Below are positions 17,199-26,837 of a stretch of 29,348 nt of DNA, piece after piece. Source of the stretch: a virus; the IMG/VR virus record IMGVR_UViG_3300021960_000353, positions 1-29,348 of that record; one strand, written 5' to 3'. Under the pieces are notes generated by a model, which was not told where the DNA came from, did no database searches, and was given only the letters and a program-made list of their open reading frames with translations. Positions within the stretch are counted from its first letter, which is position 1. Each line of letters opens with the position of its first letter. The translations under genes were made by a program, and so were the position numbers.

Positions 17199-17212
17199 AT
17201 AGTTTTACTTAT

Positions 17213-17440
17213 GTTAAACTTTAAGTCAAGTGTTTTGTTGTAACTAATACAAATAATAAAAAATAGTTAGCTATAGTTAAACTTTTATGTTAAACTTTTC
17301 TTAACGCGAAACTTTTAGTTAAGTGTTTTTTTATTTCAACATTTAATTGAAACTTTAAAGTTTAACTTACTACCTACTACCGTAGTTTTACACAAATATA
17401 CCCCCATGTCAACCCCAAAAATACCCTAGCTAAGTGTTTT
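17213..17440. repeat. Iteron-like repeats TTAAACTTT and TAAGTGTTTT
   Basis: TTAAACTTT occurs at 17214-17222, 17277-17285 and 17290-17298, and inverted at 17357-17365 next to the palindrome AACTTTAAAGTT (17351-17362). A longer 21-base copy beginning AAACTTT and ending AAGTGTTTT occurs at 17216-17236 and 17309-17329 with 19 of 21 matches. A third partial copy, TAGCTAAGTGTTTT, is at 17427-17440. They lie directly before the leftward operon, so they may be regulator or initiator sites. Confidence 0.55.
17385..17412 (-). promoter_or_regulatory. Candidate leftward promoter
   Basis: On the minus strand TTGACA (17412-17407) is followed after 16 bases by TAAAAC (17390-17385), four of six matches to a -10. 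It would read into the leftward operon through the TTAAACTTT repeats. The -35 is perfect but the -10 is weak, so this is tentative. Confidence 0.35.
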
Positions 17441-17876: not shown

Positions 17877-17904
17877 TTAAACATCAAAAGCTATTCCTTA
17901 TAAT
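17877..17904 (+). promoter_or_regulatory. Candidate rightward promoter of the first early gene
   Basis: A perfect -10 TATAAT lies at 17899-17904. A weak -35 TTAAAC is 16 bases upstream (17877-17882). The start would be near 17911, just before the first two palindromes (17925-17947 and 17963-17986), which would then be in the leader of the 18087-18713 message. Confidence 0.45.
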
Positions 17905-17924: not shown

Positions 17925-17947
17925 TAACGTCGGACGATCCGACACTA
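17925..17947 (+). repeat. Early palindrome, copy 1 (loop CGA)
   Basis: Perfect arms GTCGGA and TCCGAC around the three bases CGA, preceded by TAAC and followed by ACTA. It is the only copy whose 3' flank lacks the final A and one of two with an unusual centre. It lies just downstream of the TATAAT at 17899. Confidence 0.85.
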
Positions 17948-17962
17948 TTTCGCTCAATCAAT

Positions 17963-17986
17963 TAACGTCGGATTATCCGACACTAA
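17963..17986 (+). repeat. Early palindrome, copy 2 (loop TTA)
   Basis: TAAC, GTCGGA, TTA, TCCGAC, ACTAA. It lies 15 bases after copy 1, forming a tandem pair about 100 bases before the first early gene. A short TTTTTTGAAAAAA sequence follows. Confidence 0.9.
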
Positions 17987-18086
17987 ATCTTTTTTGAAAA
18001 AAGCTATTGCGTTTATGTTCCAACTATGGTTTAAGCTTACTCATGCGACAGCTATGGTCGCTTCACTTTTAACTTAGGAGACTAAA

Positions 18087-18713
18087 ATGTCTAACACTGC
18101 AAAGAAAACAGCAACAAAGAAAACAGCAACAAAAACAGCTCAAAAAGTTGTCAATATTAAGACAACTGCAAAACAGCGTCGCGCTAAAACTGAAAAGCCA
18201 GACCTTGGAAAACTCAATAGCCCATTGTTTGATACTGTTATTGATAACACTGAAAAGCTCACAGAAAACGCCAAAACAGGTTTGAGCTATTGGAAAGCTA
18301 TTGGCGACAGCATCATTGAAATTCGCGCCAATTGGATCGCAAACGGCGGCGACGTAAAAGCACGTGGTGACGCAAGTTTTAAGACATATCGTGAAACATC
18401 GCCTATTGGTTTCATGAGCAAACAGGACGTCTCCGACGCTATGCTAATTGCAAAAAACTGGTCTGTAGTTTGCAAAATGGACGACACTGAAAGCTTAGAC
18501 GCAATGGGTGTATCAAAATGTAAAAAGGCAATTAGTGAAGCTAAAAAGCCTAAGCAACAACAAGGTCCAAGCAATAAGAACACAAGCAAGAAATCTGTAT
18601 CGGCTCAATCAATTGTAGATAACGCGCTGGCAACTGCAGCCAAGCACGGTGTCGCAGTCTCTGATCTTTTGATCACACTCAAAACTACACTTGAAAAGAC
18701 TGCTAAAAAATAA
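18087..18713 (+). CDS. First early protein, candidate regulator of the palindromes
   Basis: A 208-residue basic protein. Residues 1-35 are Lys/Thr/Ala-rich; two perfect tandem 15-base repeats (18101-18130) encode KKTAT units. The core, SYWKAIGDSIIEIRANWIAN, then SFKTYRETSPIGFMSKQDVS and DAMLIAKNW, is helical and resembles DNA-binding cores in which a growth/length domain is followed by a 'S...A...M.IA' helix. The C-terminal region is another basic helical part. It is a transcription unit of its own: promoter and tandem palindromes upstream, palindrome copy 3 at its stop codon, and a strong terminator after that. The leader box GGAGACTAAA (18077-18086) touches the ATG. An autoregulated DNA-binding role is inferred from this layout, not from a known family. 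Confidence 0.75.
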   Translation: MSNTAKKTATKKTATKTAQKVVNIKTTAKQRRAKTEKPDLGKLNSPLFDTVIDNTEKLTENAKTGLSYWKAIGDSIIEIRANWIANGGDVKARGDASFKTYRETSPIGFMSKQDVSDAMLIAKNWSVVCKMDDTESLDAMGVSKCKKAISEAKKPKQQQGPSNKNTSKKSVSAQSIVDNALATAAKHGVAVSDLLITLKTTLEKTAKK

Positions 18714-18734
18714 CGTCGGATTATCCGACACTAA
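18711..18734 (+). repeat. Early palindrome, copy 3 (loop TTA), contains a stop codon
   Basis: TAAC, GTCGGA, TTA, TCCGAC, ACTAA. Its first three bases are the TAA stop codon of the preceding gene. A rho-independent terminator starts five bases later, so this copy lies at the end of a message rather than in a leader. Confidence 0.9.
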
Positions 18735-18738
18735 ACAC

Positions 18739-18772
18739 GCCTCGCAAGCTTCACGGTTTGCGGGGCTTTTTT
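18739..18772 (+). terminator. Rho-independent terminator after the first early gene
   Basis: A 9-bp stem, GCCTCGCAA (18739-18747) with TTGCGGGGC (18758-18766), contains one T-G pair and a 10-base loop, and is followed directly by six T residues (18767-18772). It separates the first early gene from the rest of the rightward region. Confidence 0.9.
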
Positions 18773-18834
18773 GTGCCTTACGTACGCGCCGGGAACGCGC
18801 ACCTACGCATGATAGTAATGGGATGCCATCTCGT

Positions 18835-18863
18835 TTGACATAAGCTGCACCCTATGCTATACA
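18835..18863 (+). promoter_or_regulatory. Sigma70-like early promoter
   Basis: Perfect -35 TTGACA (18835-18840), 17-base spacer, -10 TATACA (18858-18863) preceded by TGC (extended -10). Start near 18870; palindrome copy 4 begins about 10 bases later. It shares CCTATGCTAT with the promoter at 19303. Confidence 0.8.
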
Positions 18864-18879
18864 TATTGCAAGGCAACGT

Positions 18880-18903
18880 TAACGTCGGATAATCCGACAC
18901 TAA
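18880..18903 (+). repeat. Early palindrome, copy 4 (loop TAA)
   Basis: TAAC, GTCGGA, TAA, TCCGAC, ACTAA, eight bases before the GGAGACTAAA box of the next gene and just after the promoter at 18835-18863. Confidence 0.9.
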
Positions 18904-18924
18904 TTTTATGTGGAGACTAAAAGA

Positions 18925-19101
18925 ATGACTGAGTTTGGCAAGATATGTAATGAAGCTAAGGAAGCGGCTATAGTACGCCGTAATGAGGCGTTAAAGGATG
19001 TTTATGATAACAATCCTGATATGCTATTATCGGAACTAGCCCAAATCGTAGGGGTATCTGTACCAGAACTAAAAGAAATTTTAATGGGGGGTGACTTGTG
19101 A
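18925..19101 (+). CDS. Small early protein with HTH-like C-terminus
   Basis: Fifty-eight residues from ATG 18925. An in-frame GTG fifteen bases upstream lies within the ribosome-binding box, so it is not used as start. The second half, DMLLSELAQIVGVSVPELKE, has the spacing of a helix-turn-helix (LSELAQIVGVSVPELKEIL) and may bind DNA, although the protein is very short. It is coupled to the next gene by a GTGA overlap. Function unknown. Confidence 0.7.
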   Translation: MTEFGKICNEAKEAAIVRRNEALKDVYDNNPDMLLSELAQIVGVSVPELKEILMGGDL

Positions 19102-19301
19102 GACCTGATTATACAATACAGAGTGATTGGTCTAAATGGGAAGATCACGCTAAAACGTGTGACGTACGCGCTTTGCGTCACATTATAGCAGATTGTCGCA
19201 ATGCTGCTGCTGCTATGAGGTCGCACAACACAGATAAAGAGGGGTACTATATTGACCAAGCTTGCACCTATAGTGACGAATTGCGTAATCGTTTGACTTG
19301 A
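19098..19301 (+). CDS. Small early protein, unknown
   Basis: Sixty-seven residues from a GTG that overlaps the previous stop (GTGA), after a G-run. The sequence (DWSKWEDHAKTCDVRALRHI, then CRNAAAAMRSHNTDKEGYY) is helical with several His, Cys and Asp residues. No family recognised. It ends just before the promoter at 19303. Confidence 0.65.
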   Translation: MRPDYTIQSDWSKWEDHAKTCDVRALRHIIADCRNAAAAMRSHNTDKEGYYIDQACTYSDELRNRLT

Positions 19302-19302
19302 T

Positions 19303-19331
19303 TTGACTTTTGCCTAGTCCTATGCTATCAA
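19303..19331 (+). promoter_or_regulatory. Sigma70-like early promoter with inverted repeat
   Basis: TTGACT (19303-19308), 17-base spacer, TATCAA (19326-19331) preceded by TGC. CTAGTCCTAT (19314-19323) and ATAGGGCTAG (19337-19346) form an inverted repeat with one mismatch (T-G) that flanks the -10. Palindrome copy 5 is about 35 bases beyond the start. Confidence 0.7.
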
Positions 19332-19371
19332 CAGGTATAGGGCTAGTCATGGGCTAAATTGATTGACCCGC

Positions 19372-19395
19372 TAACGTCGGATAATCCGACACTAA
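19372..19395 (+). repeat. Early palindrome, copy 5 (loop TAA)
   Basis: TAAC, GTCGGA, TAA, TCCGAC, ACTAA. It is followed by the same bases TTTTATGTGGAGACTAAA as copy 4, so the module is duplicated beyond the palindrome itself. Confidence 0.9.
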
Positions 19396-19416
19396 TTTTA
19401 TGTGGAGACTAAACAG

Positions 19417-19611
19417 ATGATTACTTGTGATGAATTAAATAGACATTGCAATTTGCATCAAGACACTTTGCGTGGTTTGGATGCCATTGATATGCGGGTA
19501 TTTTGTGACACTTATGAGGCTGAAAAGAATAGAGTATTGACTAGTACTCGTTTTTTGCCTACAACAAATAGGGATTACTATGTAGCATTGGCTGCACTAG
19601 TAACTGATTGA
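19417..19611 (+). CDS. Small early protein, unknown
   Basis: Sixty-four residues from ATG 19417, after the box GGAGACTAAA (19404-19413). The protein, MITCDELNRHCNLHQDTLRG onward, is polar with a hydrophobic end (YYVALAALVTD). No recognisable domain. It is a single-gene cassette between palindrome copies 5 and 6. An upstream in-frame GTG lies in the box and is rejected. Confidence 0.65.
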   Translation: MITCDELNRHCNLHQDTLRGLDAIDMRVFCDTYEAEKNRVLTSTRFLPTTNRDYYVALAALVTD

Positions 19612-19614
19612 TTT

Positions 19615-19638
19615 TAACGTCGGATTGTCCGACACTAA
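19615..19638 (+). repeat. Early palindrome, copy 6 (loop TTG)
   Basis: TAAC, GTCGGA, TTG, TCCGAC, ACTAA, three bases after a stop codon and four bases before the next GGAGACTAAA box. The centre TTG is unique, while both arms are intact. Confidence 0.9.
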
Positions 19639-19655
19639 ATATGGAGACTAAAACT

Positions 19656-20093
19656 ATGACACTTCAAGAAATGTTTGATAAAGCAGTGGCTCACTTTGCC
19701 GATATGGATCGTCCCTCTATGTCTACGCCTAAACAGTATGGTGCATATGGTGGTACAGACTGTGCGTATCGTGGTCATCATGGTAACAAGTGTATCGTTG
19801 GTGCATTTATTGATGATGAACATTATGACGAGGGATTAGAGGGCAAAGGTGTTTTGGAGTATTCAACTCTTAATCGCTCTTGCGGTGTTCAGCCTGTGCT
19901 TAATGCTGTGGCTGCATCTATGGGTGTTGAGGCTTTGGGTGACGAGCAAAGCCAATTATTGTACAAGCTGCAGCTTATTCACGACGATAACAGTGATGGA
20001 TTTGACATAGGTGAAGATAACTGGTATGAAGCAGTTGAGCTATTCTTGAGAGAGTTGGCTGACGATTGTGACCTAGAGTATAACGTCGGATAA
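19656..20093 (+). CDS. Early phage protein with CxYRGxxGxKCxxG motif
   Basis: A 145-residue acidic protein. Residues about 30-60 carry TDCAYRGHHGNKCIVGAFID, then DEHYDEGLEGKGV. This CxYR...G.KC..G..I....Y....EG pattern is one I recall from unassigned proteins of many phages. The rest is helical and acidic, with DNWYEAVELFLRELADDCD near the end. The start ATG 19656 follows GGAGACTAAA; the ATG at 19641 is part of that box. The last three codons and the stop are supplied by palindrome copy 7, so the C-terminus is NVG. Function unknown. Confidence 0.75.
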   Translation: MTLQEMFDKAVAHFADMDRPSMSTPKQYGAYGGTDCAYRGHHGNKCIVGAFIDDEHYDEGLEGKGVLEYSTLNRSCGVQPVLNAVAASMGVEALGDEQSQLLYKLQLIHDDNSDGFDIGEDNWYEAVELFLRELADDCDLEYNVG

Positions 20094-20104
20094 TCCGACA
20101 CTAA
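20081..20104 (+). repeat. Early palindrome, copy 7 (loop TAA), codes a C-terminus
   Basis: TAAC, GTCGGA, TAA, TCCGAC, ACTAA. The preceding gene reads into it: AAC GTC GGA encodes its last residues and the loop TAA is its stop codon. The next GGAGACTAAA box begins five bases later. Confidence 0.9.
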
Positions 20105-20122
20105 TTTGTGGAGACTAAACAC

Positions 20123-20785
20123 ATGTATAAGCGTGATGTAGCTGAGATAAAAGATTTCGTCAGGTTCGGTGGGCCTGATGCTTTGGTAAGTGTTGTTTTG
20201 TTTGTGTTGCTTACAATTCAAGCAGGTCTAAGCACCGTAAAAGGTCAGCTTAAGAAAGTTGACGAGGATGGCTTTCGTGCTAATTGTTTGTGGGGTAAAA
20301 AAGCTGATGGCTTGCGTTATGCCAGAGACAACAAAGATTTTTTGTATGGTAAACTGTACAAGATAATTCAAACGCACGGCTATGCATCTACTGAGGGGTG
20401 CGTTGCAGCTATTGAGTTATTCATCACCATCCCTAATCTTGGGCTAGTAAAAGCTGCATTTGTAGCTCAGTGTTTGGGCTTTGACGTTGCATGTTTGGAC
20501 AGTCACAACTTGGCTAGGTTTGGTATTCCTGTATCTCAGGTAAAAGATAACCCCAAAGCTAAGATAGAGACACGACGTAAAAAGTGGGCGTCTTATGTGC
20601 AGCTATGCCGTGACTTGGCAGATGCAAATAATGTAGATGACATAGCGCATGGTTTATGCTCAACAGCCACCGAGTACTGGTGGAATAGTTGGTGTTCCTA
20701 CGTTGCGGGTAACATTGCCAACCGTAGCTTAGACAGTGGCGATATTGTGTCACGCTATCATGTAGAGTGTATCGTTCGTACATAA
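20123..20785 (+). CDS. HhH-GPD-like protein, possible DNA base-excision fold
   Basis: A 220-residue protein starting at ATG 20123 after GGAGACTAAA (20110-20119). Residues 102-128, TIPNLGLVKAAFVAQCLGFD followed by VACLDSHN, resemble the helix-hairpin-helix GPD motif of DNA glycosylases (LPGVG..TA..V, then (V/L)DTH), including the Asp-x-His. The lysine that bifunctional enzymes use falls on Val here, with Lys shifted one position. The N-terminal third is helical and the C-terminus holds several Trp and Cys residues. It could be a monofunctional glycosylase, an inactive DNA binder, or an unrelated fold. A single-gene cassette between copies 7 and 8. Confidence 0.5.
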   Translation: MYKRDVAEIKDFVRFGGPDALVSVVLFVLLTIQAGLSTVKGQLKKVDEDGFRANCLWGKKADGLRYARDNKDFLYGKLYKIIQTHGYASTEGCVAAIELFITIPNLGLVKAAFVAQCLGFDVACLDSHNLARFGIPVSQVKDNPKAKIETRRKKWASYVQLCRDLADANNVDDIAHGLCSTATEYWWNSWCSYVAGNIANRSLDSGDIVSRYHVECIVRT

Positions 20786-20786
20786 C

Positions 20787-20815
20787 TTGACTATTAAGTG
20801 CGCCTTGTGTACTAC
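20787..20815 (+). promoter_or_regulatory. Candidate early promoter with inverted repeat
   Basis: TTGACT (20787-20792), 17-base spacer, TACTAC (20810-20815), a four-of-six -10. CGCCTTGT (20801-20808) and ACAGGGCG (20818-20825) form an inverted repeat with one T-G mismatch across the -10, as at 19314-19346. Palindrome copy 8 lies about 25 bases beyond the expected start. Confidence 0.5.
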
Positions 20816-20845
20816 TAACAGGGCGTACTACAAGACGATCAAGTT

Positions 20846-20869
20846 TAACGTCGGATAATCCGACACTAA
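20846..20869 (+). repeat. Early palindrome, copy 8 (loop TAA)
   Basis: TAAC, GTCGGA, TAA, TCCGAC, ACTAA, six bases before the next GGAGACTAAA box (20876-20885). Confidence 0.9.
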
Positions 20870-20888
20870 ATATACGGAGACTAAACAA

Positions 20889-21086
20889 ATGTTTGACACT
20901 TGGGATCAAGCCTTGCATATGAGAGACAAGCTTAGTGAAGTCAGTGTTTTAGCGATGCAGTTAAGTTCTTTATCTGCAGATATTGTGGATGACTTTGACA
21001 ATCACAAAAGATGTGCTACAACTGAGGAACGGTTAAGAGAGAAGCTAAAAGAGTTAAACACTACATTGGAAGGATTAAACATATGA
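20889..21086 (+). CDS. Small coiled-coil early protein
   Basis: Sixty-five residues from ATG 20889, after GGAGACTAAA. It is almost wholly helical with heptad-like spacing: MRDKLSEVSVLAMQLSSLSA, then TTEERLREKLKELNTTLEG. It probably forms a coiled coil. It is coupled to the next gene by an ATGA overlap. No known function. Confidence 0.65.
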   Translation: MFDTWDQALHMRDKLSEVSVLAMQLSSLSADIVDDFDNHKRCATTEERLREKLKELNTTLEGLNI

Positions 21087-21409
21087 CACGTGCAAAGAAC
21101 CTACTTGGCAAAAGCCGCAAGACAGATACACCTTATGCTATCTTCAAGGGCTACGGCCCCTTTGGTGAGACTGAAATGCGTTTGCTTAAGACATATCAAC
21201 TACCTGCAAAAGAGAAAGAGAACCCATATGCTAGGTGGTTTGTAGCTGTAAAGACTGACATGACGTATGGATCATATGACATGGGTGACAGCTACATCAA
21301 AGAGGCTACTATGGGTTTGACCCGTGTCTATGCTCACCCTCTGTATCTTGAGCAATACGGTATTGAGGAAGATGCGGATGACAAGTTATTGGCTGAGTTG
21401 TTCAGCTAA
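21083..21409 (+). CDS. Early protein, unknown
   Basis: A 108-residue protein beginning at an ATG that overlaps the previous stop. The N-terminal part is basic (TRAKNLLGKSRKTDTPYAIF), the middle has many aromatic residues (YARWFVAVKTDMTYGSYDMG), and the end is acidic (EEDADDKLLAELF). The mixed strand-like middle suggests a small globular fold. No family recognised. Confidence 0.65.
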   Translation: MTRAKNLLGKSRKTDTPYAIFKGYGPFGETEMRLLKTYQLPAKEKENPYARWFVAVKTDMTYGSYDMGDSYIKEATMGLTRVYAHPLYLEQYGIEEDADDKLLAELFS

Positions 21410-21606
21410 TGCTACACCTGCATAAACGTGACCGCTACGCTAGGCGTCCAGACAAGTTCTGGCGTAGCAAATGGTTAAGAGAAGTCACCAGAAGTTTTAC
21501 TTTATTTGACATAGAGAACCGCTTCTGGTATAACAATATTACACCAACTAAAATGGAGACTAAAGACAATGACAACTTACAGCGTGATAGCCCGAATAGC
21601 GGGTAA
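21409..21606 (+). CDS. Small basic early protein (possible)
   Basis: Sixty-five residues from ATG 21409, which overlaps the previous stop (TAATG). The first 45 residues are basic and aromatic (HKRDRYARRPDKFWRSKWLR). The last part reads through the leader box of the next gene and gives METKDNDNLQ, which is also what that box spells by chance elsewhere. The overlap with the next gene is 38 bases. It is probably real because it fills the space with coupled translation, but the evidence is modest. Confidence 0.5.
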   Translation: MLHLHKRDRYARRPDKFWRSKWLREVTRSFTLFDIENRFWYNNITPTKMETKDNDNLQRDSPNSG

Positions 21607-21745
21607 GACTTTTGTAGAACACCCTGAGTTCGGTGATGAAGCACCTGTCCAAATGCTTACAGATAGTGGCATGATTGAGACACCCTTTTGGGATATGGAT
21701 GAACCCCGTGAAGTACACCTGTGGGTATTGGAGGAAGCACAATGA
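21569..21745 (+). CDS. Small acidic early protein, unknown
   Basis: Fifty-eight residues from ATG 21569, four bases after GGAGACTAAA (21555-21564). MTTYSVIARIAGKTFVEHPE, then an acidic stretch with FWDMDEPREVHLWVLEE. It has no palindrome directly upstream, unlike most boxed genes. It ends in an ATGA overlap with the next gene. No family recognised. Confidence 0.65.
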   Translation: MTTYSVIARIAGKTFVEHPEFGDEAPVQMLTDSGMIETPFWDMDEPREVHLWVLEEAQ

Positions 21746-21948
21746 AGATCACCAGAACAAACCCTATGACAGGTAACACTGTCTCAATGGATATTGATGT
21801 CACACCTGCACAGATTGTATCATGGGAGGGGGGAGAGTTAGCACAAAACGCTTTCCCTAATATTGATGCTGGTCAGAGAGAGTTTATTATGACAGGTATG
21901 ACGCCTATGGGTTGGAAGTTTTTGTTTGGGGAGATTGATGATGCTTGA
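21742..21948 (+). CDS. Small early protein, unknown
   Basis: Sixty-eight residues from ATG 21742, chosen because GGAGG lies just upstream and the start overlaps the previous stop. The sequence MKITRTNPMTGNTVSMDIDV, then PAQIVSWEGGELAQNAFPNI, resembles small phage proteins that I recall containing a 'R.NP.TG....D..VT..Q...W..G...Q.A.P......RE....G..P..W' pattern. The role is unknown in those too. The end overlaps the following start. Confidence 0.72.
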   Translation: MKITRTNPMTGNTVSMDIDVTPAQIVSWEGGELAQNAFPNIDAGQREFIMTGMTPMGWKFLFGEIDDA

Positions 21949-22123
21949 AGCTATTTTTTGGGATGAGTGTGGAACCATCCAAGTAGTAGAATATAACGTT
22001 GCCGACACTGAGATTGGTGACTTGATTGACAAGTACCCTGATTGGAGTTATAGGTATTCACAGGAACCCTACGTTCCTTCTGAGCCTGAGTTCTATGACC
22101 CTTACGAGGGTGACTATTCTTAA
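21941..22123 (+). CDS. Small acidic early protein, unknown
   Basis: About 60 residues from ATG 21941 (ATG 21938 also possible), after GGGGAG. Mostly strand-like and acidic: EAIFWDECGTIQVVEYNVAD, then SEPEFYDPYEGDYS. Its stop codon TAA is the first three bases of palindrome copy 9. No family recognised. Confidence 0.65.
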   Translation: MLEAIFWDECGTIQVVEYNVADTEIGDLIDKYPDWSYRYSQEPYVPSEPEFYDPYEGDYS

Positions 22124-22144
22124 CGTCGGATTATCCGACACTAA
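22121..22144 (+). repeat. Early palindrome, copy 9 (loop TTA), contains a stop codon
   Basis: TAAC, GTCGGA, TTA, TCCGAC, ACTAA. The leading TAA ends the preceding gene. The following leader box is GGAGACATATC (22160-22170). Confidence 0.9.
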
Positions 22145-22170
22145 CTAAGCAAACCTAAAGGAGACATATC

Positions 22171-22398
22171 ATGTTTGCACTTATCGCCACAGCACCTTTG
22201 AACGATGGTACTAACGGCTTCCGCTTTAACATACTTGGACGTAAGGGTCTGTATCGCCCTCGTAAATTAAAGAGCCGAGGTATTGGCATTGAGAAGCTGT
22301 CATGTACTACCGCATTTCATCTTTTCAAGCGTACTATTTACCTTGAGAAGAAAGTAAACCGTACTACTTCTCGCCGCTTGCGTCATTTCGCTGGCTGA
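22171..22398 (+). CDS. Small basic early protein, unknown
   Basis: Seventy-five residues from ATG 22171, after GGAGACATATC. It is very basic with an Arg/Lys-rich second half: NILGRKGLYRPRKLKSRGIG, then FHLFKRTIYLEKKVNRTTSR. It could bind nucleic acid. Its gene is a single-gene cassette between palindrome copy 9 and the promoter at 22402. Confidence 0.65.
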   Translation: MFALIATAPLNDGTNGFRFNILGRKGLYRPRKLKSRGIGIEKLSCTTAFHLFKRTIYLEKKVNRTTSRRLRHFAG

Positions 22399-22401
22399 TT
22401 G

Positions 22402-22430
22402 TTGACTTTGGCTACCCCTGCTGCTATACA
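22402..22430 (+). promoter_or_regulatory. Sigma70-like early promoter with inverted repeat
   Basis: TTGACT (22402-22407), 17-base spacer, TATACA (22425-22430) with an upstream TGC (extended -10). CCCTGC (22416-22421) and GCAGGG (22435-22440) form a perfect inverted repeat around the -10. No 24-bp palindrome follows, unlike the other early promoters. Confidence 0.75.
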
Positions 22431-22477
22431 TGTGGCAGGGAGACACTCCCCTTCATATTTACATAGGAGACTACATC

Positions 22478-22729
22478 ATGGAATTGACTGACATCAAACA
22501 AGCAATGCTTGCACTAGACACTGCTGACCTCAATGATATTATTGACTTGGCGCATGACTTAAAGACCCTCAAGGGTAGGACTAGCCTCAAGGTAGGTCAG
22601 GACGTTTGGGTAGTACAAAAGACCAAGCGTACTGCTGGTATCATTGAGAAGATTAACCAAAAGAAAGCACAGGTGCGTATGCGTGGCTCTATCTACAACG
22701 TACCGTTCAGCATGATTGAGGCAGCGTGA
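22478..22729 (+). CDS. Small early protein with SH3-like C-terminus
   Basis: Eighty-three residues from ATG 22478, after GGAGACTACATC; a longer frame to 22430 would begin in the promoter. Residues 1-35 are an acidic helical pair (MELTDIKQAMLALDTADLND). Residues about 38-80, LKVGQDVWVVQKTKRTAGII, then EKINQKKAQVRMRGSIYNVP, read like a small beta-barrel of the KOW/SH3 type found in many phage proteins. A nucleic-acid-binding role is a guess. The stop overlaps the next start by one base. Confidence 0.7.
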   Translation: MELTDIKQAMLALDTADLNDIIDLAHDLKTLKGRTSLKVGQDVWVVQKTKRTAGIIEKINQKKAQVRMRGSIYNVPFSMIEAA

Positions 22730-23508
22730 TGCAACAGTACGTAATCAGTCTGTACGACTACACAGGTGAGGCTCTCAAGCCTTGGGCAGAAGCAGGGTAT
22801 ACCTGCTATGCCTTTGACATACAGCATAATGGTGAGTTAAGGCGTGTCACAGATTATTCTGGTGGTGGTTCTATTCATTATTGTCATGCTGACCTGCATG
22901 ACTTTAGTACTCACAGTGATCTGTTCTTTCGTTTCAATGGTCGCAAGGTAGCATTTGGTATGGCCTTCCCTGTCTGTACTGATCTGGCTGTATCAGGTGC
23001 AGCGTGGTTCAAGAAGAAGGCAGAGGCTGACCCATTGTTTCAACAGAGGGCTGCACAACACGCCATTGATTGTGCTGGTCTGTTTGATGATCTTGGTTGC
23101 CCTTACTTCATTGAGAACCCTGTATCTGTATTGGCTACCAAGTGGCGCAAGCCTGACCATACGTTTCACCCTTACGAATACGGTGGTTACATTGCCAAGA
23201 ATGACGCACGGCATCCACGTTGGCCTGACTACATTGCAGACCGTGACGCCTACCCTAAGAAGACTTGCTTGTGGACAGGCAATGGCTTTGTGATGCCGCC
23301 CAAGGTTCCTGTTGAGCCTGAGACAGGTCACAGCAGACAACACTTGAAGTTAGGCGGTAAGTCTGCTAAGACTAAGAACATCAGAAGTGCCACACCACGT
23401 GGCTTTGCAATCGCTGTCATGGCAGCTAACATACAGAAGGAGACTACCAATGGGAACCAAGATGGATCACGACAAGCTGTACAAGATACAGACCTACTCG
23501 TTTCATGA
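22729..23508 (+). CDS. DNA cytosine methyltransferase-like protein
   Basis: A 259-residue protein from ATG 22729 (an upstream GTG is adjacent). It opens VISLYDYTGEALKPWAEAGY followed by FDIQ, a motif I-like S-adenosylmethionine-binding start with an acidic residue ending the next strand. Then come PVCTDLAVSGAAWF (C83, motif IV-like) and FIENPVSVL (E129-N130-P131, motif VI-like). This order resembles phage Dcm-related methyltransferases. The usual PC pair is VC here, so activity is uncertain. The C-terminal part, with SRQHLKLGGKSAKTKNIRS and a TPRGFAIAV segment, is also typical. The last 20 residues read through the next gene's start and may be non-conserved. Confidence 0.65.
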   Translation: MQQYVISLYDYTGEALKPWAEAGYTCYAFDIQHNGELRRVTDYSGGGSIHYCHADLHDFSTHSDLFFRFNGRKVAFGMAFPVCTDLAVSGAAWFKKKAEADPLFQQRAAQHAIDCAGLFDDLGCPYFIENPVSVLATKWRKPDHTFHPYEYGGYIAKNDARHPRWPDYIADRDAYPKKTCLWTGNGFVMPPKVPVEPETGHSRQHLKLGGKSAKTKNIRSATPRGFAIAVMAANIQKETTNGNQDGSRQAVQDTDLLVS

Positions 23509-23827
23509 TGCAATCATTACTGTGACTGAGGCTTTCTATGGGCGTACTGAGATTGATAAACCTACCAAGCCTAACAAGCACGGTCATACACAATCCCCTA
23601 CAGTACACGCTGATGGCAGTGAGCATTACTACAAGTACACACACTGGGAAGAAGCTATTGCTGTAGTACCTTTGCACTTTGATTATGCTGATAACCTGAC
23701 TGATGCTGATAAGGTGAAGACAGTCCTTGAGACTATTGATGCCTTAGAGAAAGCTTATGCTTCATATCCTGATGGAGAGATCAGCATCAGTTGGACTATG
23801 CGCCGTAACTGTATCAATCAGGATTAA
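23450..23827 (+). CDS. Early protein, unknown
   Basis: A 125-residue protein from ATG 23450, after GGAGACTACC (23439-23448); a longer frame lies inside the methyltransferase-like gene. It contains FHDAIITVTEAFYGRTEIDK, a His/Lys-rich loop, THWEEAIAVVPLHFDY, and a helical end. It overlaps the previous gene by 59 bases. Its stop is the TAA at the start of palindrome copy 10. No family recognised. Confidence 0.68.
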   Translation: MGTKMDHDKLYKIQTYSFHDAIITVTEAFYGRTEIDKPTKPNKHGHTQSPTVHADGSEHYYKYTHWEEAIAVVPLHFDYADNLTDADKVKTVLETIDALEKAYASYPDGEISISWTMRRNCINQD

Positions 23828-23848
23828 CGTCGGATTATCCGACACTAA
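23825..23848 (+). repeat. Early palindrome, copy 10 (loop TTA), contains a stop codon
   Basis: TAAC, GTCGGA, TTA, TCCGAC, ACTAA. The leading TAA ends the preceding gene. GGAGACACC follows four bases later, before ATG 23866. This is the last copy in the window. Confidence 0.9.
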
Positions 23849-23865
23849 ATGAGGAGACACCGCCA

Positions 23866-24078
23866 ATGACTATTAAAGTTTTATATCAAAGCGTAGACAT
23901 GCGTGAAGGTTACACAGTTAACTATGATAACTGTGCTGATGCAGCCAAAGCGATTAAATATCAGATAGGTAACCTTGGCGAGAAAGAGAGTCTCTATGCT
24001 GTCTCTAATGATGGCATAGCTACTGCAACACCCATAAACTGTACAATGTGGGACATACATGAGGCTGCAAACCAATGA
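23866..24078 (+). CDS. Small early protein, unknown
   Basis: Seventy residues from ATG 23866, after GGAGACACC. MTIKVLYQSVDMREGYTVNY begins a strand-rich sequence, with DAAKAIKYQIGNLGEKESLY following; the layout suggests a small alpha/beta fold. The stop overlaps the next ATG (ATGA). No family recognised. Confidence 0.65.
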   Translation: MTIKVLYQSVDMREGYTVNYDNCADAAKAIKYQIGNLGEKESLYAVSNDGIATATPINCTMWDIHEAANQ

Positions 24079-24266
24079 ACATGCCAAGCAATCAATACAA
24101 TCTAAAACACATTACACCTCTGTCAGAAGAACGGCAGAGGTTAATGGATGCAGTAGAGGAGTCACAGTGGGAGGGTGACATGCACATGGCTGACCTACTC
24201 AGCACAGAGCTAGACCTAGTTAACCAATGCATAACTAAGGGGGAGCTATATGCACCCCTTTTTTAA
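24075..24266 (+). CDS. Small helical protein, unknown
   Basis: Sixty-three residues, acidic and helical (SEERQRLMDAVEESQWEGDM, then LLSTELDLVNQCITKGELY). The start overlaps the previous stop. The last 17 bases overlap the next, membrane-protein gene. No family recognised. Confidence 0.6.
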   Translation: MNMPSNQYNLKHITPLSEERQRLMDAVEESQWEGDMHMADLLSTELDLVNQCITKGELYAPLF

Positions 24267-24339
24267 GAGTGTAGGTAACTTTCTACTCTACATACTAATC
24301 ACTATCGTATTCGTTAGTGCAGCAATAGGAATGATGTAA
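24250..24339 (+). CDS. Tiny single-span membrane protein
   Basis: Twenty-nine residues, starting MHPFFKSVGNFLLYI. Residues about 10-27 are continuously hydrophobic (FLLYILITIVFVSAAIG). GGGGGAG lies just upstream of ATG 24250, and the stop is one base before the recombinase ATG. A membrane-inserted regulator or toxin-like peptide is possible; nothing more can be said. Confidence 0.55.
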   Translation: MHPFFKSVGNFLLYILITIVFVSAAIGMM

Positions 24340-26318: not shown

Positions 26319-26409
26319 AGAGGAATTACTTAGAGAGATTGGTGAGTTGAAGAAACGCATTGAACAACTAGAAGCACAGCTAAAACTTTGGAAAGGTACA
26401 GCACCGTGA
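26308..26409 (+). CDS. Tiny coiled-coil protein
   Basis: Thirty-three residues, almost a single helix with heptad spacing: KAREELLREIGELKKRIEQL, then EAQLKLWKG. GGAGATAAGGAAG precedes ATG 26308, and the stop codon overlaps the GTG start of the transporter-like gene. It may pair with another small protein. The frame and site are clear; the role is not. Confidence 0.6.
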   Translation: MKAREELLREIGELKKRIEQLEAQLKLWKGTAP

Positions 26410-26837
26410 ATAACTATGTATATACAGCCATTGGACTTGTAGTATTCTACATTGGCCTCAAGATGTTTAGCGGTGGCATGAAAAGTATGGGTAACATAGA
26501 CCACTTGACTTGGTTCTTGGGCAACCCTATCTATATGTTCTTTGGGTCAATCGTTATGACACTGGCGTGGCAGAGTAGTAGCCTATCCACTACGGCTATC
26601 ATTGCCTTGGTTGCGTCAGGTGTGCTACCCTTACCTGCTGCTGTGGCTGCTGTACTAGGGGCTAACATAGGTACAACAGGTACGATCTGGCTGGCTGGAC
26701 TGTTAGTGTCTGACGGTATGCCAAGGGGTGACACCTTGCGTATTGCCTTGGTGCATACTGGTGTTAATCTTTTGATGGCGATAAGTCTGTTGCCATTTGT
26801 ACATCACATAGCTAAGTACGTGGGGAGAGTAGGTTAA
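26406..26837 (+). CDS. Half-size Na/Pi-cotransporter-like membrane protein
   Basis: A 143-residue membrane protein from GTG 26406, which overlaps the previous stop (GTGA). It has the repeat unit of Na+/phosphate cotransporters (NptA/PF02690 type): GLKMFSGGMKSMG, then MTLAWQSSSLSTTAIIALVA with the QSSS motif, then AAVLGANIGTTGTIW with the GANIGTT motif. Full transporters have two such units (about 300 or more residues); this has one plus a final span, about four spans in all. It could work as a homodimer, pair with a host half, or modify host phosphate or ion flow. It lies among replication genes, so it is expressed with them. The family is recognised by motifs; transport is inferred. Confidence 0.75.
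   Translation: MNNYVYTAIGLVVFYIGLKMFSGGMKSMGNIDHLTWFLGNPIYMFFGSIVMTLAWQSSSLSTTAIIALVASGVLPLPAAVAAVLGANIGTTGTIWLAGLLVSDGMPRGDTLRIALVHTGVNLLMAISLLPFVHHIAKYVGRVG

Follow-up and report, generated by a model that had tools for sequence, protein, structure and literature searches.

The early arm of the 29,348-nucleotide viral stretch IMGVR_UViG_3300021960_000353 (hereafter the window, meaning that whole stretch) is punctuated by ten copies of a short palindromic element, which begin just ahead of the first early gene (18087–18713). The window is a partial genome of an HMO-2011-type marine podovirus, a member of a dominant and abundant marine viral group. Its terminase is 74–79% identical to those of Roseobacter phages CRP-2, CRP-603 and CRP-207 and Puniceispirillum phage HMO-2011, and its layout combines a leftward late arm with a rightward early arm encoding integrase, primase, ThyX and helicase. 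The relevant features, in order along the window, are:

17899..17904, + strand: TATAAT, a possible −10 sequence upstream of copy 1; a good −35 was not seen
17925..17948, + strand: element copy 1 (flank TAAC, arm GTCGGA, centre CGA, arm TCCGAC, flank ACTAT); TATAAT about 20 bp upstream
17963..17986, + strand: element copy 2, centre TTA, ahead of the first gene
18087..18713, + strand: first early gene, whose product is the candidate element binder; homologues or counterparts in element-bearing relatives
18711..18734, + strand: element copy 3, centre TTA, on the stop codon of the first gene, with the terminator downstream
18739..18766, + strand: strong intrinsic terminator that follows the first gene, with a 12-bp stem and a T tail
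18835..18863, + strand: promoter-like TTGACA-17-TATACA upstream of copy 4, conserved in relatives
18880..18903, + strand: element copy 4, centre TAA, with the TTGACA/TATACA promoter upstream and a ribosome-binding site downstream
19303..19331, + strand: promoter-like TTGACT-17-TATCAA upstream of copy 5, conserved in relatives
19372..19395, + strand: element copy 5, centre TAA
19615..19638, + strand: element copy 6, centre TTG
20081..20104, + strand: element copy 7, centre TAA
20846..20869, + strand: element copy 8, centre TAA
22121..22144, + strand: element copy 9, centre TTA, on a stop codon
23825..23848, + strand: element copy 10, centre TTA, on a stop codon

As a first-pass annotation of this DNA had described, all ten copies lie at these positions in a single orientation, the arms GTCGGA and TCCGAC are perfect in 10/10, and the three central bases read TTA (four copies), TAA (four), CGA (one) and TTG (one). 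The core site is a perfect palindrome of 15 bp. The outer flanks, which had been called conserved and asymmetric, required some correction: TAAC is kept, but ACTAA is found in only 9/10 copies (copy 1 has ACTAT), and the outer TTA and TAA of TTAAC...ACTAA are themselves symmetrical, so that the symmetry is broken mainly by the AC/AC step. Allowing up to 3 arm mismatches, we found 14 sites in the window compared with 3.3 expected; 10 of these are perfect and 0 have 1 or 2 mismatches. With 6-bp arms and a 3-bp spacer, the commonest palindrome occurs 10 times in the window, while the maximum in 100 shuffles was 1 or 2. Seven of the ten copies end 23–32 nt before a start codon (106–196 nt for copies 1, 2 and 3), and several lie on or directly next to the stop codon of the gene before them. 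As had been noted, no copies occur in the window's late arm, and in longer relatives all those found fall within one early cluster. An Rfam scan gave no match, and a role as terminator was rejected, the 6-bp stem being without an immediate T run.

Analysis of related phages revealed that the element belongs to a wider family. The exact element with its flanks is present in 13 viral-contig stretches. Relatives, which we located via their integrase and then screened for repeated palindromes, carry the same kind of series at corresponding positions, with arms that differ by phage: GTCCTA (8 copies), GACGGA (11 and 6 copies), GTCGGA with the centre TCG or CGA (5 copies), GTAGGA (6 copies plus near copies) and GTAAAA (about 6–8 copies). 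Among cultured phages, HMO-2011 has five copies of AGTCCG-N4-CGGACT, and CRP-1 and CRP-345 have copies of GTCCAA-N2-TTGGAC, part of them within coding sequence; the element seems not to have been reported previously in these three phages. Across the family, there are five to eleven copies per genome, the spacer varies from 2 to 4 among phages, and the arms are uniform or nearly so inside each phage.

The changes between phages affect whole sets of sites. In contig L039, which does not include the first gene, most site flanks are 92–100% identical to those of the window and its near relatives (some pieces down to 79%), and at orthologous sites GTCCTA arms replace GTCGGA inside these conserved flanks. 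Similarly, every visible copy in L121 and L122 (two and three, respectively) has a spacer of 4, while that of L058 is 3; the first-gene products of L121 and L122 are 78–79% identical to that of L058. Such symmetric, set-wide arm switching is the expected product of co-evolution with a recognizing protein. A mixed case is contig L011 (75–1658, minus strand), in which three GTAGGA copies surround a first gene 44% identical to that of the window and one distal copy is GTCGGA; this contig is either a recombinant or an assembly chimaera.

The first early gene accompanies the element. Every element-bearing genome with a readable start has a counterpart of the 18087–18713 gene in first position, and this gene is fast-evolving. 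Its product in the window has 208 amino acids, with a basic N-terminus and a predicted helical core. Profile comparisons formed a chain through the window, L058, L045, CRP and HMO-2011 groups (E-values of 4e-12, 5e-23, 9e-6 and 1e-5); as these values come from pairwise hhalign runs with very small alignments, the weaker links are suggestive only. The first genes of the L097 and L104 groups are similar in layout and show weak C-terminal similarity. No match to the first-gene product was found in the fetched stretches, mostly not whole records, of the seven cultured element-free phages CRP-2, CRP-603, CRP-207, CRP-9, CRP-13, CRP-3 and CRP-212, and de novo motif searches in CRP-2, CRP-603, CRP-207, CRP-9 and CRP-13 returned only motifs at near-shuffled counts or resembling ribosome-binding sites. 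Relatives with the same genes and no element, anticipated in the first-pass annotation as counter-evidence, were found only among those that also lack the first gene.

AlphaFold2 predicted an all-helical core and a two-helix C-terminus for this protein, with core confidence mostly 80–90 for the L058 homologue. Searches of the PDB by sequence and by fold gave nothing above noise. The best match in BFVD was a 205-residue protein (E = 0.003) with the length of HMO-2011 gp74, although its identity is unconfirmed. DUF3102 was tried as a family for this product and gave no match. In L035, the first-gene product (2238–2924) matches that of the window up to residue 170 only, and the C-terminal part looks unrelated, which suggests a domain exchange.

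Many of the sites are positioned close to promoters. TTGACA or TTGACT occurs at −105 to −34 relative to 18/48 elements from six phages (5.9 expected at random positions; 0/2000), which places many sites a short distance after likely host-type promoters. Most relatives have their first copy 39–58 bp upstream of a −35 motif that precedes the first gene. Such an arrangement would make sense for a repressor or roadblock that also feeds back on the gene encoding it. The possible −10 before copy 1 is also preserved, with TATAATGGC conserved in L031, L032, L034 and L035, and for this reason we abandoned the argument that places copy 1 outside any transcript.

On the basis of these observations, our preferred, though tentative, interpretation is that the ten copies are dyad-symmetric DNA operators of a phage-made regulator, probably the 18087–18713 product, that restrain early transcription. 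Under this model, the half-site GTCGGAY would face its own mirror image across the centre, with many operators situated downstream of a sigma-70-type promoter but ahead of an early gene's ribosome-binding site, and others framing the first gene. The bound regulator would restrain early transcription by blocking both nearby initiation and elongation past the site, and would feed back on its own gene; the outcome may be a timed early shut-off, or the system may contribute to a decision for or against lysogeny. Operator spelling and spacer would be lineage-specific, matched to each lineage's own version of the regulator. The first-pass annotation had already suggested stoperator-like sites and named this product as the candidate; set-wide arm and spacer switching, gene co-occurrence and the −35 motifs strengthen that proposal, while its argument for an RNA role from the flanks is not upheld in the relatives. 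That the first-gene product binds the element, does so on DNA and represses is what we infer from these associations. Several observations weigh against this interpretation. The product matched no known family and no recognisable DNA-binding family in the searches made with it, and the model of the window protein is poor (mean pLDDT 59). Within the window's group the flanks point in one direction at 47/47 distinct sites, counted on sites with forward flanks, and the closeness of seven window copies to start codons is as for an RNA-level element. The conserved TATAAT means that copy 1 may be transcribed. Finally, CRP-3, an integrating phage, lacks both the element and the first gene in those stretches that were read.

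The most serious competing explanation, which we nonetheless consider unlikely, is control at the RNA level, in which a 15-nt transcript hairpin would be bound by the basic first-gene product and would act through antitermination, as in lambda N/boxB, or through translation. The single orientation, the closeness to start codons and the copy immediately before the first gene's terminator fit this explanation, as do stems that are phage-specific, as for N/boxB, and the symmetric arm changes themselves fit both DNA and RNA modes. Pairing strength speaks both ways: in the window phage, the 6-bp stem with its 3-nt loop has a folding energy of about −8.3 kcal/mol, close to the value that the same computation gives for lambda boxB, but hairpins in the GTAAAA phages reach only −2.8 to −4.4. 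Two L097 copies carry a one-sided change that retains a G-U pair, favouring RNA, whereas A.C or A.A mismatches break a pair in half of the L039 copies and in most of those of L101 and L092. The orientation of the centres is better explained by DNA. Among 47 sites they come in reverse-complement pairs (TAA 18/TTA 10, CAA 12/TTG 6); HMO-2011 has ACAG four times and its reverse complement CTGT once; and in L058/L062 TCG occurs four times and CGA once, that is, inverted relative to the rest. Moreover, one copy each in L101 and L092 fits better as an inverted consensus with flanks included (2 versus 5 and 3 versus 6 mismatches, respectively), and in L058 the terminator comes before the copy rather than after it. 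Thus, contrary to the earlier view that the asymmetric flanks favour RNA, the single inverted copies, reverse-complement centres and poorly RNA-pairing arms of the relatives make it likely that the element acts as DNA.

Other DNA-level explanations appear improbable. The sites could serve a bridging, spreading or partition protein of the KorB/ParB kind that organizes or silences the early region at a distance. Scattered, perfectly conserved palindromes and a first copy that precedes the promoter of the first gene would suit such a protein, and KorB silences RK2 promoters from both near and distant operators (PMC11790492). However, a scan of the first-gene product gave no ParB/KorB family match, and the sites are clustered ahead of early genes only. 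It is equally improbable that the elements are kept mainly as junctions for gene-cassette recombination, like PeSLs of T4-type phages, with regulation secondary. Cassette order between elements does differ (D then E in the window, E then D in L039), and L039 site 965 combines the upstream flank of window 19619 with the downstream flank of window 20085; yet shuffling may simply result from repeated sequence, and the set-wide change of arms and spacers and the link to the first gene would be left unexplained. We regard promoters for a phage-encoded T7-like RNA polymerase as highly improbable. The single orientation ahead of genes would agree with such promoters, and GACACTAA resembles a T7/SP6-type promoter core, but both arms change symmetrically between phages and sigma-70-like promoters lie upstream of many copies. 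In addition, no RNA polymerase gene is annotated in the stretches of HMO-2011 and CRP-2 that were read, the window itself being a partial genome.

We compared the element with known systems of repeated phage and plasmid sites. It shares with lambda N/boxB a 15-nt phage-specific palindrome and a first early gene that encodes a basic protein and is directly followed by a terminator. Unlike boxB, it occurs in five to eleven copies per genome with inverted copies among them, its centres vary as reverse-complement pairs rather than forming a conserved loop, and the stable hairpin of the window phage is broken or weak in some relatives. The closest parallel to the operator interpretation is provided by the stoperators of cluster A mycobacteriophages, which are bound by the L5 repressor (PMC6550527, PMC9283540): in both, each genome carries numerous short sites placed in narrow intergenic gaps, in one orientation (here in the window group), with a consensus that differs by phage and tracks the cognate (here putative) regulator. 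In contrast, stoperators are asymmetric 13-bp sites bound by a monomer with a recognized helix-turn-helix, while here the site is a perfect palindrome, inverted copies or centres occur in HMO-2011, L058, L092 and L101, all sites lie in the early region, and the candidate protein showed no relation to the known families searched. The stoperator repressor, which stops transcription elongation when bound, combines an N-terminal helix-turn-helix with a stoperator domain; for the first-gene product, there was no family match and the predicted fold is of low confidence.

The ESAS of cluster K mycobacteriophages (PMC3203893, PMC11373665), whose function is unknown, are likewise inverted repeats located before the start codons of some non-structural genes; a conserved motif near the start follows them, and their consensus differs by subcluster. 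However, ESAS are imperfect 17-bp repeats with a variable spacer, lie upstream of a 13-bp SAS and contain a promoter, whereas the element has nearly perfect arms of 5–7 bp, a fixed spacer, −35-like motifs 34–105 bp upstream of many copies and a link to a candidate regulator gene. PeSLs (cited in PMC4503421) resemble the element in being regulatory units that recur between early genes and serve as points of gene shuffling; they differ in joining a terminator stem-loop with an early promoter, the palindrome here being short and apart from both. KorB operators of plasmid RK2 (PMC11790492) are also palindromic, belong to a global regulator and are scattered, some close to promoters and others distant, but here the first-gene product gives no sign of a ParB/KorB protein and the spelling differs between close relatives. 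Within the literature covered, which was not exhaustive, there appears to be no description of this family of elements, of the spellings particular to each phage or of the association with the first gene.

The surroundings of the element yielded further observations. Comparing window 18880–24270 with L031, L032, L034, L035, L039, L045 and L046, we found that the small inter-element genes behave as cassettes: close relatives have acquired, lost or rearranged them, and the junctions fall at the element. The repeated element together with the ribosome-binding site may act as a recombination junction, as has been proposed for PeSLs in T4-type phages (PMC4503421). A start-proximal motif, GGAGACTAAA, is found in the window at 18080, 18912, 19404, 19643, 20109, 20865 and 21555; it reaches well past the ribosome-binding site, precedes many early genes whether or not the palindrome is present, and recalls the mycobacteriophage SAS. 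The stretch 17200–17380, which separates the divergently oriented early and late arms and lies upstream of the leftward genes, is AT-rich with repeated TTAAACTTT-like words, and these could be a second set of regulatory sites. The region 26388–26837 encodes a 149-amino-acid membrane-like protein that by eye resembles part of a Na/Pi cotransporter, and Na/Pi cotransporter genes have been reported in HMO-2011-type genomes (PMC9038755).

The exact element is absent from a genome collection of 84,980 species and from the plasmids searched. No relatives of the integrase were found in the same collection, which therefore offers no evidence of prophages. Integration has been shown for at least one member of the group, CRP-3 (PMC6918029).

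The literature covered mentions no repressor or early regulator for HMO-2011-type phages, and a comparative paper on the group mentions neither palindromes nor promoters nor a repressor (PMC9038755). Our analysis offers a concrete candidate regulator together with putative sites for it, and cultured phages, HMO-2011 and CRP-1 among them, carry both. It is quite possible, if still short of an even chance, that these constitute an independent stoperator-like operator system with an undescribed family of regulators, in which target sequence and spacer are replaced in concert to create private specificities. The natural series of operator spellings and spacers allows a direct test of whether a regulator co-evolves with its five to eleven sites. 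If true, many private specificities would arise between close relatives through concerted, genome-wide replacement of the regulator's targets.

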